Assembly: GCA_902587145.1 (NCBI GenBank)
Contig: CACIKD010000001.1
Span: 58,805 to 122,804 of the forward strand
Reading direction: 5' to 3'
DNA length: 64,000 bases
Source: an uncultured Pelagibacteraceae bacterium
Lineage (GTDB): Bacteria; Pseudomonadota; Alphaproteobacteria; Pelagibacterales; Pelagibacteraceae
Position 1 is the stretch's first letter; the number at the start of each line of letters is the position of its first letter. Below the pieces are notes generated by a model, which worked only from the letters and a program-made list of their open reading frames with translations, was not told where the DNA came from and did not search any database. A program made the position numbers and the translations under genes. Below, one piece after another: positions 414 through 6,484 of the stretch.

Positions 414-459
414 TAAATCATTTTAACTTATTTGCTTGACTTCTAAAATGAGTTATTAT

Positions 460-494
460 ATTACTAATGATAATTAATTGTTATCGATAGTAAT
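460..494. repeat. Imperfect inverted repeat, 14-bp arms, 7-bp spacer, upstream of tyrosine recombinase
   Basis: ATTACTAATGATAA-TTAATTG-TTATCGATAGTAAT; arms match 12/14; ends 3 bp before ATG at 498. Confidence 0.8.
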
Positions 495-497
495 GAT

Positions 498-1451
498 ATG
501 AATGAACTTACAACTGACATAAAAGCTTTACAAGACGAAACATTAAATAATCTTAAAACCTCTAAAGCCAGTAATACTTTGAGGGCTTATAGATCTGATT
601 TTAGAGATTTTGCAGGTTTCTGCGCTAAACACGGCTTCAAATCAATGCCTTCGGATCCTAAAATCGTATCTTTATACCTAACTCATCTATCAAAAAAATC
701 TAAAATTAGTACTTTAAGGCGTAGATTGGTGTCGATAGGCGTTGTTCATAAATTAAAAGGTCATTATCTAGATACCAAACATCCAGTAATCATTGAGAAT
801 TTAATGGGTATAAAAAGATTAAAAGGGAGCAAACAGATAGGTAAAAAACCAATATTAATCAATCACTTAAAACAAATAATTAATGTAATTAATGAACAAG
901 ATATTGAGGAAATTGTAAAACTAAGAAATAAAGCATTGATACTAATTGGATTTGGAGGTGGTTTTAGACGTACAGAGTTAATATCTATTGACTATGAAGA
1001 TCTTGAATTCGTTGATGAGGGTGTAAAAATAATACTTAAAAGGTCTAAAACAGATCAATTCGGAGAAGGTATGATTAAAGGCCTTCCCTACTTTTCAAAA
1101 GAAACTTATTGTCCAGTAACAAATCTCAAAAATTGGCTAAAAATTTCAAAAATTAAAAATGGGCCTATTTTTAGAAGATTTGCTAAAGGTTCTGCATTAA
1201 CAAAAAATCGGCTAACAGATCAGTCAGTGGTTCTTATAATAAAAGATTGTTTGAAAGTAGCTGGTATTGCAAATGACAATTTCTCAGGACATAGTTTAAG
1301 ATCTGGTTTTGCCACTGTAGCTGCAGAAGCTGGAGCAGATGAGAGAAGCATAATGGCTATGACAGGACATAAAACATCACAAATGGTCAGAAGATATATT
1401 AGAGAAGCTAATATATTCAAAAACAATGCATTAAATAAAGTAAAGATATGA
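498..1451 (+). CDS. Tyrosine recombinase / phage-type integrase
   Basis: GFRRTEL (Arg I), HSLRSGF (HxxR), TGHKTSQMVRRYI (H...Y) catalytic motifs; N-terminal SAM-like domain. Confidence 0.93.
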   Translation: MNELTTDIKALQDETLNNLKTSKASNTLRAYRSDFRDFAGFCAKHGFKSMPSDPKIVSLYLTHLSKKSKISTLRRRLVSIGVVHKLKGHYLDTKHPVIIENLMGIKRLKGSKQIGKKPILINHLKQIINVINEQDIEEIVKLRNKALILIGFGGGFRRTELISIDYEDLEFVDEGVKIILKRSKTDQFGEGMIKGLPYFSKETYCPVTNLKNWLKISKIKNGPIFRRFAKGSALTKNRLTDQSVVLIIKDCLKVAGIANDNFSGHSLRSGFATVAAEAGADERSIMAMTGHKTSQMVRRYIREANIFKNNALNKVKI

Positions 1452-2221
1452 TTAAAGATTTGGAGTTCTTGTTTAAAAAAGTATTTTTTTCTGAGAGTTA
1501 TTTATTAAAGAAGAGATTAAAAAGAGCTATTAATAAAGGTTATGAAAAAGAACTTTTGATTATAGATAAATTTGCAGATAAATCTAAAGATGCTTTAGAT
1601 GTTGGTGTTTACAGAGGGGTATATTCATATAAATTATCTCAGAATTTTAAAAATATACATTCATTTGAGCCTAATCCCCTTCTCTTTCCCTATTTAGAAA
1701 AAAATTTAATTAAATTAATTTCAAATGTAAAATTATATAATCTAGCGTTATCAAATGTAAACGGTGTAACAGAACTCAAGCTGCCTTTAAGAACAAAATC
1801 AATTTTTAAGGACAACATAGAAGAATTATTCCAATTAGGAGCAGCAACTATGCACCCAAATAATAAGATTGATAATTACAAAAAAGTACCAATTATAACG
1901 AAAAGATTAGATGATATAGAAATAGGAAATAAAATCGGACTTATAAAAATTGATGTTGAGGGACATGAAAAAAATGTACTAAAAGGAGGAATAGAAACTG
2001 TAAAAAATAATAAGCCTGTCCTACTTGTAGAAATTGAGGAAAGGCATACGAAAAATCCAATAACAGAAACTATAAATTTTATAAAATCAATTGGTTATAA
2101 AGGATTTATATCAAAAGAGAATGATTTAATTGAGATAGACAAAGTTATAGACTTAAAGAAAGAAAACAATTTTTTTTTTCTACCATTAGATCACAAGCTA
2201 ATCCAATCCTCAGGCCAGTAA
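1448..2221 (+). CDS. FkbM family methyltransferase
   Basis: DVGVYRGVYSYKLSQNFKNIHSFEPNP and GLIKIDVEGHEKNVLKGG motifs; start overlaps integrase stop (ATGA). Confidence 0.88.
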   Translation: MIKDLEFLFKKVFFSESYLLKKRLKRAINKGYEKELLIIDKFADKSKDALDVGVYRGVYSYKLSQNFKNIHSFEPNPLLFPYLEKNLIKLISNVKLYNLALSNVNGVTELKLPLRTKSIFKDNIEELFQLGAATMHPNNKIDNYKKVPIITKRLDDIEIGNKIGLIKIDVEGHEKNVLKGGIETVKNNKPVLLVEIEERHTKNPITETINFIKSIGYKGFISKENDLIEIDKVIDLKKENNFFFLPLDHKLIQSSGQ

Positions 2222-3126
2222 TCCTTATTTTTAATATTAAGAAACTTAAAAAAATTTAATTTGGGTCTAACAACAATTTTATCATTATTTTTTGCTAACC
2301 AAGTTCCCCACCAATTAAAAGCCGAAGGAATAACGGCATAATGTTTACATTTTGTCATTAAGTATAGATCTAAATGCATTTTTTCTACTTCGTCTAATAT
2401 ATTTGAATTATCTACAAATTTAACGTCATAATTTTTAAAGATATCATTAAGATTTTCAAAATTATTACTCCATAAATAAAATGATGGGGATTTAAGCTTC
2501 TTTTTAAAATATTCTATTGCATTAAATACAAATGAAACTTGTTCATCTAAAAAGCTTTTTGATTTATTGCGATCTAAATTTGTAATACTATTAAACTTTT
2601 CAGTAAATCTGTTTTGTCTAAGACAAAGAGAAACTGAATCATTTTTAACAATGTCATCAAAGTATTTATTTTTTTGAAATTTAAGCTTTTTTTTAGGAGT
2701 GAATATATTTAACAAATCTTTTTTATATTTCGAAAAATACTTTTCCGACTCAAAATACCCTTCCATATATAAAGTATCTTTATACGACTGATTTGTATTA
2801 ATCACATTAAATTCAGTTTCTTTATTTTGTTGATATTTTTCTAATATAAAGGATTTTTTTTTGATAAAAGGATCAATCTTTTTAATAATTTTTCTCCTTA
2901 AATAACCACTTATATTCGTGAAATTGTCCTCAGAGGAAGTAATGTCATCTGGTATTTCAAAACCATCTAAAGCATAAGTATAAATATTTTTTCTTGATTT
3001 ATAAGAGGATAAATTATCAAAATAAAATTTTCTTTTTAATAATTTAGATGCAGCATAACCCGCAGCGAACATGAACATTTGATTACCTAAATTGTTTGAT
3101 AACCTAATTATTAATTTTTCTTCCAT
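2191..3126 (-). CDS. Glycosyltransferase family 11-like (alpha-1,2-fucosyltransferase type)
   Basis: N-terminal LSNNLGNQMFMFAAGYAASK and C-terminal SAFNWWGTWLAKNNDKIVVRPK are GT11 hallmarks. Confidence 0.85.
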   Translation of the reverse strand: MEEKLIIRLSNNLGNQMFMFAAGYAASKLLKRKFYFDNLSSYKSRKNIYTYALDGFEIPDDITSSEDNFTNISGYLRRKIIKKIDPFIKKKSFILEKYQQNKETEFNVINTNQSYKDTLYMEGYFESEKYFSKYKKDLLNIFTPKKKLKFQKNKYFDDIVKNDSVSLCLRQNRFTEKFNSITNLDRNKSKSFLDEQVSFVFNAIEYFKKKLKSPSFYLWSNNFENLNDIFKNYDVKFVDNSNILDEVEKMHLDLYLMTKCKHYAVIPSAFNWWGTWLAKNNDKIVVRPKLNFFKFLNIKNKDYWPEDWISL

Positions 3127-4117
3127 TGACCAATAAATTTTCTATTCTTTTAATAGTGACATTAAAATTTTTTTTTGGGATCATAAACTCATAACTTTTT
3201 AACTTAGGAACAAATTCATGAAATGCATTTTTATATTTATAAAAATCTTCAATAGAATTAATTTCACAGTTAAATAAATCAATAACTTTTGTTTTTTGAA
3301 TTGCTGCCATTGAAGTAATTGAACCGTGAAAAGAAATAACGATCTTCGCGTTTCCAATTAATTTAAACAAATGTTCTGCTTTAATATTGGGATAATAATC
3401 CACAAATTGATCATTCTTAATTTTATATTTTTCTAATAATAAATTATTTGTCTGATTATCATTTAGATCATTTGTTAGCACGATCCTTTTATCTAATTTT
3501 TTTAATTTATCTATAAGTATGTATAAATCTGATAATCCTAAATTTAATTTGCTAAATTTAAATTTATTATAATGAACTAGTATGTAGTTCTTTTTATTTA
3601 GCTCAGATTTCAATTCTTCTTCAACAATTTCAAATAAACTTTTTGTACTTTCGTTGTTTGTTAAACTCATATTTAGTTCGTTTATTGATTTTCTAATTTT
3701 TTTTGATCCCCTGTCATTAATTGCTATCTTATCCATCAATTTTCTTAAAAATAACGCAGGTCTTTTATAATTAATATTATCTACGCAGATACCAAAAAAC
3801 TTTATTCTTTTTAAATAAAAAATAAGTGGTAAGTAAAATAAATAATTGCTCGGTTTAAAGATATAAACTTCTTTTATATCGTTTCTTAAAAAAAATAAAA
3901 ATAAATTAAACTTATCTATAATATTAATTTTTTCTGTTATAACTTTAAAATTAACATTATTTGATTTAAATAAAAACTTCATTTCTGAATTGTAATGAGA
4001 TAAAAAAATTAATATTTTTTTGTTTAAATTATTTTTGATTATATTTTGTATTGCATTGTAAGCATGGAGCAAATCGCCAATTTTGTCATTTTTAAAAATA
4101 ATAATATCTTCATTCAT
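3104..4117 (-). CDS. Glycosyltransferase family 9-like (heptosyltransferase-related)
   Basis: MNEDIIIFKNDKIGDLLHAYNAIQNI start; KIVISFHGSITSMAAIQKTKVIDLF GT9-like C-terminus. ORF track starts at 4153, but MNED at 4117 fits the family better. Confidence 0.7.
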   Translation of the reverse strand: MNEDIIIFKNDKIGDLLHAYNAIQNIIKNNLNKKILIFLSHYNSEMKFLFKSNNVNFKVITEKINIIDKFNLFLFFLRNDIKEVYIFKPSNYLFYLPLIFYLKRIKFFGICVDNINYKRPALFLRKLMDKIAINDRGSKKIRKSINELNMSLTNNESTKSLFEIVEEELKSELNKKNYILVHYNKFKFSKLNLGLSDLYILIDKLKKLDKRIVLTNDLNDNQTNNLLLEKYKIKNDQFVDYYPNIKAEHLFKLIGNAKIVISFHGSITSMAAIQKTKVIDLFNCEINSIEDFYKYKNAFHEFVPKLKSYEFMIPKKNFNVTIKRIENLLVNGRKINN

Positions 4118-6239
4118 TATGCCACATGTGTTTTGTTTTGCTTTTAATGTCAAAAGTTTTATTTAAAATAAAATCAGCTACTAATGTTGAATTAAAATAC
4201 TTTAAATACTTATTTCTTCCTTTTTTACCAATCTTTCTTCTTAACTTTTCATCTTGAGATATTTTAGAAATCTTTTCAGACAAATCATTTAAATTTTTGT
4301 AAAAAACCATTTCATCTTTTTCAAAAAAGTCTTGATAACCAGTTTTTTCGTCTATTAATGTTACTAATCCATTACCAATTATTTGAGTAATTCTATCGCT
4401 GCTATAATATTTTATAGGCTCTCCCCTACTCAAATTTAAGCCCATTTTTGAATTCGATATAGTCTTAAAATAATGATCGGCCCAAATTGGTTGCACTTTA
4501 TCTATACCATAAACATCAAATTTTACATTTTTGGTTTTATCAATTAATTTTTTAACAAACGAAGCCCTATCATCAGACTTGCCAGTCTTTAGTATGCCTC
4601 TATGCACTCCATGACTAAGTGCGAAAAAAACATCCATGTTACAATTTTTATTATAATTTTTTAAAGTTTCAAAAGAACTATCAGAAGGATTTGGAATAAA
4701 ATAATTTCTAGTTTTTTTTGACAAAAAATTTAAAACATCAGGGCTAGTAGTTAAAAAATTAGCTTCCATAAAATCCGATTTATCTAAAATACGACTTTTA
4801 TTCCTGTGGAAATCTGGTCCATTTTTATTTAATGGATCAAGAAACCATTGAGACATTTTAAGATTAGGATAATCATCTTTAAGCTCTCCTAAAGTTTCAG
4901 GAGAAACTAAATCTGCGTGACCAAATATAATTGCATCTGGTTTAAAATTATAACAAGTTTTTTTCAGTTTATTGTTTAGATTTTTAGCCCCAGATAAATC
5001 CTTATAGCTTTTGTAATATTTTTGAATATCTCTATCACTGAATTCTAGTATACTATGTCCAAGTCTTATTAGACCATTATTTATTCTTCTGCCTGTATTA
5101 AAAAATAATCTACCATCATGTCTCTCATTAAAATTAGTCACATGAAGTATTCTTAGAGAAATATTTTTCTTAACATTAAATAATTTTAAATATTTAAATT
5201 TTTCATCACGATAATTATCAATCAATGAAGATACAAATTTATGAGTTAAATAAAAATTGACAATAGATTTTTTTTGTAATTCATACCTTGCTAATTTGTT
5301 TTTAATTAAATAATCAATATTTTTATATAAAGAAGCTACATTAAGTTCTTTTAAAATTAATCCATTTGTAATTGTTTCAGGCAAACCACCTCTATTGCTA
5401 ATAATTACAGCGCAACCAGCTGAAGAGGCCTCTAGACTGGTCCTTCCAAATGGTTCTTCCCATCTTGAACAAACAACTGCGATACTCGTTCTTTTATATA
5501 TGTCGATGACTTTTTTGTGTGAAATAAATCCATAGTTCTTTAAATTCTTATGATTGAACTCTATTTTATCTCTTTGTTCATCACCAGCAACATTAACTTT
5601 CCAATTTGGATATTTTTTTAATATTTTTAAAACTGCCTTGCCAAAAATATCATATCCTTTAGATTTATTTAATTTTCCAACAAATGTTATTTCTTTTTTT
5701 TTATTTTTTGGATTAACATTGATTTTTTTAGCTGATTGAAAAACTACCAATAATTTCTCACTATTGATAAACTTATTTTGCATACCCTCTAAAAATCTCT
5801 TTTTAGACCAATTACTATTAAAAATTATTTTATAACAAATTTTTAACAAATATTTTCTTTCTTTTACTGTTTTTGAACCCGACATAGTTAGTGGATCGTT
5901 ATGAAAATACAAAACAAGATTTCTCTTTCTTAAGGAATTTACAATTACAGACAAATAATTAGGCCTATTATGAACTTCAATTAGATCTGAGGGATTTTCT
6001 TTTTCATTCAATATAAATTTTTCTACATATTGTTTGCTTTTACTTTTAAACCTAAAATTTGATAGTGATATATTGTGATATTTTATTGGGAATTTTTTTT
6101 TCAAACTAGTATTGCCATAAACAACTATATCTTTTTTATACTTACTTAAAGCAGCTGTATCTTTAACAAATAGTGAAACAGCGCCAGGGTAACTTGGTGA
6201 AAAATTTTCTTTGTAAGGTAGTAAAATTGAGATTTTCAT
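4110..6239 (-). CDS. Two-domain glycosyltransferase (N-terminal GT4/group 1 plus C-terminal glyco_trans_1_2-like domain)
   Basis: First half: VGKLNKSKGYDIFGKAV...SRWEEPFGRTSLEASSAGCAVI; second half: ILHVTNFNERHDG...NLSRGEPIKYYSSDRITQIIGNGLVTLIDEKTGYQDFF. Confidence 0.85.
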   Translation of the reverse strand: MKISILLPYKENFSPSYPGAVSLFVKDTAALSKYKKDIVVYGNTSLKKKFPIKYHNISLSNFRFKSKSKQYVEKFILNEKENPSDLIEVHNRPNYLSVIVNSLRKRNLVLYFHNDPLTMSGSKTVKERKYLLKICYKIIFNSNWSKKRFLEGMQNKFINSEKLLVVFQSAKKINVNPKNKKKEITFVGKLNKSKGYDIFGKAVLKILKKYPNWKVNVAGDEQRDKIEFNHKNLKNYGFISHKKVIDIYKRTSIAVVCSRWEEPFGRTSLEASSAGCAVIISNRGGLPETITNGLILKELNVASLYKNIDYLIKNKLARYELQKKSIVNFYLTHKFVSSLIDNYRDEKFKYLKLFNVKKNISLRILHVTNFNERHDGRLFFNTGRRINNGLIRLGHSILEFSDRDIQKYYKSYKDLSGAKNLNNKLKKTCYNFKPDAIIFGHADLVSPETLGELKDDYPNLKMSQWFLDPLNKNGPDFHRNKSRILDKSDFMEANFLTTSPDVLNFLSKKTRNYFIPNPSDSSFETLKNYNKNCNMDVFFALSHGVHRGILKTGKSDDRASFVKKLIDKTKNVKFDVYGIDKVQPIWADHYFKTISNSKMGLNLSRGEPIKYYSSDRITQIIGNGLVTLIDEKTGYQDFFEKDEMVFYKNLNDLSEKISKISQDEKLRRKIGKKGRNKYLKYFNSTLVADFILNKTFDIKSKTKHMWHNE

Positions 6240-6484
6240 TTAACTTTTTTTTTTAATATATTTCTTATCAATCTATTCTTCTTTATATAATATTCTCTCG
6301 AAATTGCTTTACTTTTTGTCTCATGTTTCTCTTTATATATTAACTTCCATTTACGACCTCTGGTAAACTTAGCTCCTTTTCCAGTATTATGAAGCTTGAT
6401 TCTATTTTGTAAATCTTTAGTGTAACCAACATAAGTAACACTTTTTTTATTTTTTGATTTGAGCATATAAACATAATAGCTCAT
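6236..6484 (-). CDS. GIY-YIG nuclease superfamily protein (UPF0213/YhbQ-like)
   Basis: YYVYMLKSKNKKSVTYVGYTKDLQNRIKLHNTGKGAKFTRGRKWKLIY. Confidence 0.9.
   Translation of the reverse strand: MSYYVYMLKSKNKKSVTYVGYTKDLQNRIKLHNTGKGAKFTRGRKWKLIYKEKHETKSKAISREYYIKKNRLIRNILKKKVK

Follow-up and report, generated by a model that had tools for sequence, protein, structure and literature searches.

Single-recombinase modules with linked sites are described for XerS/difSL and XerH/difH (PMC2731167), and the XerL/dif system of the Legionellales, found in 2022, had been missed by the 2009 survey (PMC9765430). In this survey of proteobacterial dif/Xer systems (Carnoy and Roten, 2009), Pelagibacter ubique was listed without a dif/Xer system, and the absence was taken to indicate that dif/Xer is dispensable in streamlined genomes (PMC2731167). 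On the side of mobile elements, P1 Cre separates phage-plasmid dimers (PMC8138268). A search of the open-licence literature for papers combining Pelagibacter or SAR11 with the resolution of chromosome dimers or with dif returned, besides PMC2731167, only an unrelated paper, with subscription papers mostly outside its scope; Pelagibacter is not mentioned in the main texts of a 2017 Xer review and a 2011 dif prediction paper.

Here, we analyzed a 64-kb stretch of DNA from an uncultured member of Pelagibacteraceae, referred to at its full length as the window. An inverted repeat near its start is very probably the chromosomal dif of SAR11, and the gene next to it would encode the sole recombinase for dimer resolution, a Cre-like enzyme replacing XerC/XerD. 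The role at the terminus, the Cre-like ancestry, and the phage copies of the site go beyond what an earlier note on this DNA had proposed.

An inverted repeat in front of a recombinase gene

The 35-bp repeat at 460–494 reads ATTACTAATGATAA-TTAATTG-TTATCGATAGTAAT and ends 3 bp 5' of the recombinase ATG (498). Re-reading the sequence, we recovered the 14-bp arms (pairing at 12 of 14 positions), the 7-bp asymmetric spacer, and the 3-bp gap to the ATG that the earlier note had described; the bases GAT (495–497) separate the right arm from the start codon. The features are as follows.

436..441, + strand: −35 element TTGACT, conserved (TTGACA in most orthologues)
457–462, + strand: alternative −10 TATATT, a consensus match only
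459..464, + strand: probable −10 TATTAC, a consensus match only, 17 bp from the −35 element and running into the left arm at its outer end
460..473, + strand: left arm ATTACTAATGATAA, predicted site of one recombinase monomer, with invariant inner GATAA
474..480, + strand: asymmetric 7-bp centre TTAATTG, the proposed crossover region, nearly always TTAAT[T/G]G in orthologues
481..494, + strand: right arm TTATCGATAGTAAT, predicted site of the second monomer, with invariant inner TTATC
498..1451, + strand: Cre-like single tyrosine recombinase, 317 aa, with a Phage_integrase domain

A direct repeat of TAATGATA had also been pointed out at 465–472 and 491–498; these positions are right, but the repeat is incidental, because the bases between the site and the ATG differ among orthologues.

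On its own, the repeat at 460–494 is unexceptional in AT-rich DNA. The window contains 7 inverted repeats of at least 12/14 with 6–8 bp spacers, against 6.2 expected from dinucleotide shuffles, and about 0.015 repeats of such quality are expected per 150-bp stretch. Since such repeats are common in the window, the case was built on comparison and not on the repeat alone. Their near-expected frequency is what would be seen if 460–494 were a chance palindrome of AT-rich DNA; this explanation is contradicted by the conservation before 83 orthologues, the covariation of the arms, and the position of the site, and its probability is practically nil.

We found the repeat upstream of all 83 orthologous recombinase genes examined, about 0–10 bp before the start codon. 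The core GATAA-N7-TTATC was invariant or nearly so in these upstream regions, and the centres read TTAAT[T/G]G apart from a small number of cases (TTTATTG, TTAAAAG, and TTAATAG). The outer arms occurred in two versions: type A, ATTACTAAY...AATAGTAAT, which is that of the window, and type B, TTTCC...GGAAA. When covariation was scored on 80 distinct site sequences, the five inner arm pairs were invariant, and two-sided changes were observed at offsets 5 (CG/TA), 7 (AT/TA), and 9 (CG/TA) from the centre; the arm bases thus shift on both sides together, and the dyad is preserved while its sequence changes. The 17-bp core pattern occurred in one copy per genome in 82 genus-level genomes, while the same search found it in no genome beyond the genus, and the 35-bp site of the window was single-copy in its own genome (685 kb, 61% complete; up to 3 mismatches allowed). 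Most genomes of the same genus contained one orthologue of the recombinase each, with 61–97% identity. The repeat is raised above chance because it is conserved before orthologues, has a single-copy core, and shows two-sided arm changes. In plan (14-7-14, intergenic, AT-rich, and conserved), it resembles a dif/Xer-type site. The earlier proposal of a tyrosine-recombinase core site dedicated to the neighbouring recombinase, with an asymmetric 7-bp centre and a dif-like look, is supported.

The promoter is also conserved among orthologues (TTGACA-17-TATTAY), and TTGAC was invariant in 49 type-A sequences. The overlap of promoter and left arm, from which possible autoregulation had been proposed, is real and shared by orthologues. 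It is likely that the bound recombinase represses its own expression, because it would cover the transcription start; such autorepression is compatible with a role as dif and does not compete with it. A crossover in the promoter had additionally been thought to couple recombination to expression. This part is not expected to hold: two identical sites recombine back to the same sequence, and the crossover should therefore not be coupled to expression.

The same arrangement could be explained by an operator only, at which the recombinase or another dimeric regulator represses the promoter and which is not recombined. The −10 element reaches into the left arm, the predicted transcription start lies inside the site, the promoter is conserved, and a conserved operator would likewise yield conservation and covariation. 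However, an operator leaves unexplained both the conserved asymmetric centre and the terminus location in 4/4 genomes (see below). In addition, similar sites with a 6–8 bp spacer occur beside plasmid and phage recombinases, the sites of pelagiphages stand apart from any recombinase gene, and the 7-bp spacing is dominant even where 4–9 bp were permitted. We consider an operator without recombination unlikely.

Recombinase family, Xer/FtsK complement, and position on the chromosome

The catalytic residues R158, K184, H265, R268, H291, and Y300 were invariant in an alignment of 22 sequences, and the active site is thus intact. The recombinase scored far under the cut-offs of the XerC, XerD, XerA, and XerS models (XerS: 41 bits against a cut-off of 267). 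When the family profile was compared with solved structures, P1 Cre reached 98 bits, XerD 68, and XerH 43; the Cre match (hmmsearch, E 4e-27) extended over profile positions 34–311, which is nearly full length. An AlphaFold2 model (mean pLDDT 89.6) gave the same picture in Foldseek: the best 33 PDB matches were all Cre or the Cre-derived Tre, and XerH ranked below Cre in fold as well as in profile score. Identity to P1 Cre was only about 20–23%. A tree was built with plasmid, phage, and Negativicutes proteins, XerC/D, and P1 Cre. In it, the Pelagibacteraceae recombinases formed one group (96/100) within the plasmid, phage, and Negativicutes proteins, and XerC/D stood on a separate branch with 100/100 support; the place of P1 Cre is unsure because its branch is long. 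We therefore ruled out XerS by model score, XerH by profile and fold, and XerC/D by model scores and tree. Judged by profile and predicted fold, the recombinase is Cre-like, and the tree groups it with plasmid and phage enzymes.

We then considered the 60 family genomes of 80% or better completeness. The recombinase gene was present in 49 of them, with exactly one copy in each of the 11 single-contig genomes. It was missing in 11 of the 60, including 6 of the 37 that are at least 90% complete; these are fragmented assemblies, and we provisionally put the absences down to assembly gaps. No protein above the Xer cut-off, and hence no canonical XerC or XerD, was found in any of the 60 genomes. 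The best scores against the XerD model in the genus were about 70–86 bits, nearly all from the Cre-like recombinase itself. A sister family (f2) has two Xer proteins at about 320 and 255 bits; because the cut-off of the XerD model (329.6 bits) is missed by f2 too, the comparison is to be read as a contrast of scores. The FtsK-gamma domain, which activates Xer recombination, was present in 57 of the 60 genomes and in all 37 of the best genomes, as would be looked for with a dif site. We know of no precedent for control of a Cre-like enzyme by FtsK-gamma, and to our knowledge P1 Cre does not require FtsK. A few Pelagibacter genomes also contain a second tyrosine recombinase with a longer frame of 464 aa (G034:C1:250542-251396 and G051:C6:63275-64129), which probably belongs to a mobile element.

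The maximum of the cumulative GC skew marks replication termination. In G271, a complete chromosome of 1.21 Mb from a sister genus (skew computed without the last 11 kb), the skew maximum was located at 771,546, which is 2.1 kb from the site (773,630); the minimum was located at 159,778, and the site lies 50.7% of the way round the chromosome from it. The distance between the site and the skew peak was 1.1 kb and 1.0 kb in two large Pelagibacter contigs (G021 and G034, respectively) and 1.7 kb in the contig of the window, which therefore begins almost exactly at the terminus. Thus, all four Pelagibacteraceae tested (the terminus sample also includes one Veillonella, discussed below) had the site 1.0–2.1 kb from the peak, the exact place of which is partly set by the skew of the adjacent gene itself. 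A single copy at the terminus is what characterizes a dif site.

Directly 3' of the recombinase, at the terminus, lies a variable-looking block of surface-sugar genes (window 1448–6239), which includes genes for an FkbM methyltransferase and glycosyltransferase-like proteins. It is adjoined by a gene for a small protein of 82 aa with a GIY-YIG endonuclease domain (window 6236–6484).

The neighbourhood bears on a further explanation, in which the repeat serves a genomic island or integrative element for attachment or excision and the gene is the integrase of that element. The earlier note had likewise thought of an island border. The gene does adjoin a variable-looking surface-polysaccharide region, and plasmids and phages commonly carry members of its protein family. 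Against this, each genome has a single copy and the second border is absent; the recombinase forms one clade that was found in 10/10 genera sampled in the family, with the site before the gene wherever examined; and the site lies at the replication terminus of genomes that have lost XerC/D. We regard this explanation as highly improbable. The earlier note had also held that the lack of another genomic copy would speak against a recombination site. The single copy is confirmed, yet it is expected of a dif site, whose partner would be the same site on the sister chromosome; the lack of a second copy therefore does not refute a dif function.

For such a dif site, dimer resolution would proceed as follows. 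Sister chromosomes fused through replication and homologous recombination would be the substrate. Two recombinase monomers would bind the arms of each site, which end in GATAA and TTATC, and septal FtsK would bring both copies of the terminal site together. A recombinase tetramer would then synapse the two sites, Tyr300 would cleave, and the strands would be exchanged across the 7-bp centre, giving two monomers.

Copies of the site in pelagiphages, plasmids, and other chromosomes

Three viral contigs matched the type-A host site at 34/35 positions, including the centre. In the pelagiphage isolates HTVC035P, HTVC100P, and HTVC106P, a type-A site is directly followed by a type-B site between genes near terL, with a few mismatches, and Greip has a type-A site. 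At the same stringency, no site was found around terL in HTVC204P, HTVC024P, Skadi-5, HTVC203P, Lederberg, HTVC034P, or HTVC028P, which are phages of the HTVC010P type; HTVC010P itself has no site around terL but one weak match. The 17-bp core pattern was found in at least 120 stretches of viral contigs, and the exact type-B Pelagibacter site was absent from the viral contigs searched. A reading of the viral core stretches as a coding motif was dropped, as perfect TTCCGATAA...TTATCGGAA arms with a 6–8 bp spacer recur in unrelated contigs.

Among 60 distinct viral type-A sites, the spacer was 7 bp in 43, 8 bp in 9, 6 bp in 7, and 4 bp in 1, and only 4 overlapped an ORF of 100 aa or more. A type-B-like site followed within 75 bp downstream in 37 of the 60, compared with 1 of 60 in shuffled sequence. 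The viral type-B spacers, for which 4–9 bp were permitted in the search, were 7 bp (104), 6 bp (17), or 8 bp (8). No recombinase genes adjoin the sites of the pelagiphages, and a check of the three phages and two contigs for a Phage_integrase domain was negative; HTVC100P and HTVC106P encode putative repressors or transcriptional regulators. That phages lacking an integrase carry copies of the site, often both versions in tandem, suggests that pelagiphages without a tyrosine integrase may exploit the host enzyme through these copies.

The copies could instead serve the phages themselves, with the host enzyme resolving phage multimers or circles at them, and not be mimics for integration; we regard this as a strong possibility that falls just short of an even balance. 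The commonest viral type-A centres (CTTATGA and TTTATGA) are unlike that of the host (TTAAT[T/G]G), and exchange with the chromosome should therefore be hindered. In addition, no phage proteins were found near the terminus in three SAR11 assemblies, that is, no prophage. On the other hand, the three contigs noted above match the host site at 34/35 positions with the centre included, and of 112 distinct viral type-B sites, 51 had a host-like TTAANNG centre, where chance alone would give about 0.5%.

In other viral contigs, a type-B site lies near a tyrosine recombinase gene, in many within 100 bp (L315, L318, L327, L339, L362; L312, L337; L338, L367, L320, L307). Some of these genes are about 1.1 kb long and encode distant relatives of the enzyme in the window; several recombinase subfamilies seem to share the type-B motif.

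In the plasmid and phage records searched, the closest sequences from outside SAR11 were plasmid-borne and 35–43% identical. Upstream of the gene, three of eight plasmid relatives have perfect 11-bp repeats that are separated by 7 bp and have GATAA/TTATC at their inner ends; in a fourth, the repeat matches at 10/11 positions and the spacer is 6 bp. The chromosomal recombinase gene may be derived from a plasmid or phage, an origin for which the tree shows no direction. The Cre-like enzyme SCre of Shewanella acts at SloxP, whose inner half-sites likewise end in CCGATAA.

When bacterial genomes were scanned for TTCCGATAA-N6..8-TTATCGGAA, matches were obtained in many Pelagibacteraceae, several Negativicutes (Veillonella, Megasphaera, Anaerovibrio, Mitsuokella, and Selenomonas), and others, such as Bacillus, Paenibacillus, Myxococcales, and Hymenobacter. 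A homologous recombinase often lay no more than a few hundred bases from the match, and the spacers at the sites of relatives were mostly 7 bp, also 6 or 8 bp. All seven Negativicutes genomes tested had one homologue each, with 36–41% identity, and none of the seven reached a canonical XerD-like score (best: 138 bits, Allisonella). Veillonella denticariosi has both site and homologue, and its site lies about 3.4 kb from the skew peak (L410, G606:C6:333400). Further Negativicutes chromosomes contain TTCCGATAA-N7-TTATCGGAA (L403, L418, L428, L443, L454, L459, L462, and L470); in these chromosomes, as in V. denticariosi, the site is probably dif. Because the Negativicutes have the site, one homologue, and a terminus location in Veillonella, this design of site and recombinase probably serves at least two distant chromosomal lineages.

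Taking phages and chromosomes together, one may propose that a Cre/lox-type system derived from a plasmid or phage replaced XerCD for chromosome dimer resolution in both Pelagibacteraceae and Negativicutes, and that members of the very abundant HTVC010P type of pelagiphages, which lack a tyrosine integrase, integrate with the host enzyme via tandem mimics of the host dif, one per host version. We advance this combined proposal tentatively, as possible rather than probable.

The motif was also found in other settings. Rickettsiella massiliensis (Legionellales) has a perfect palindrome, TTACTTCCGATAA-TGCAAT-TTATCGGAAGTAA (L453:1932-1955), and its genome contains a weak match to the recombinase of the window (E 5.7e-4); the palindrome may be a dif of the XerL type, which would connect the site of XerL with the type-B motif. 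Marine gammaproteobacteria of the Oceanospirillales type (Marinomonas, Bacterioplanes, Thalassolituus, and others) contain TTCCGATAA-N6-TTATCGGAA (L402, L413, L421, L427, L434, L447, and L467), and no homologous recombinase was found near these sites. In two MAGs, TTCCGATAA-N6-TTATCGGAA occurs twice on one contig, about 185–200 bp apart (L401:3829-4037, Prevotellaceae; L417:3646-3869, Lachnospiraceae).

Comparison with known systems

If the proposed dif site is real, the SAR11 bacteria, the most abundant in the sea, do resolve chromosome dimers and do so with a single Cre-like enzyme; the argument for dispensability would therefore fail for SAR11, and the published record of Pelagibacter as lacking dif/Xer would need correction. 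SAR11 would gain a defined marker of its terminus and a gene open to testing, and a further single-recombinase type would stand beside XerS, XerH, XerA, and XerL. Plasmid Cre-like systems would be linked with the maintenance of chromosomes in two distant lineages, and a route of entry into the chromosome would be predicted for integrase-less pelagiphages. The pairs of recombinase and site could also serve as orthogonal Cre/lox tools.

P1 Cre/loxP and the Cre-like systems VCre, SCre, Vika, Nigri, and Panto share with SAR11 one recombinase and a palindromic site near its gene. Unlike P1 Cre/loxP, the SAR11 system is chromosomal, family-wide, single-copy, and located at the terminus. Its centre is 7 bp, compared with 8 bp in loxP, and lox sites have 13-bp arms around an 8-bp spacer; the site is therefore lox-like in plan and not in dimensions. 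The site is 3 bp from the start codon, whereas this distance is about 420 bp in P1 Cre/loxP.

Among the chromosomal systems, XerS/difSL of streptococci and lactococci likewise has a single recombinase and a dif linked to its gene at the terminus (PMC2731167), but the SAR11 recombinase is outside the XerS family (41 bits versus 267). XerH/difH of Helicobacter and Campylobacter is similar in its single recombinase and a site that is often gene-linked and near the terminus (PMC2731167), whereas the SAR11 family profile gives XerH 43 bits versus 98 for Cre. XerL/dif has a single recombinase and palindromic arms, was missed in 2009, and is exploited by a mobile element (PMC9765430); unlike the SAR11 enzyme, XerL is longer, with its catalytic tyrosine at Tyr387. 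The SAR11 system resembles XerC/XerD-dif in its proposed function, terminus location, and probable dependence on FtsK, but XerC/XerD-dif works with two recombinases and two different half-sites, whereas SAR11 has one recombinase and one type of half-site.
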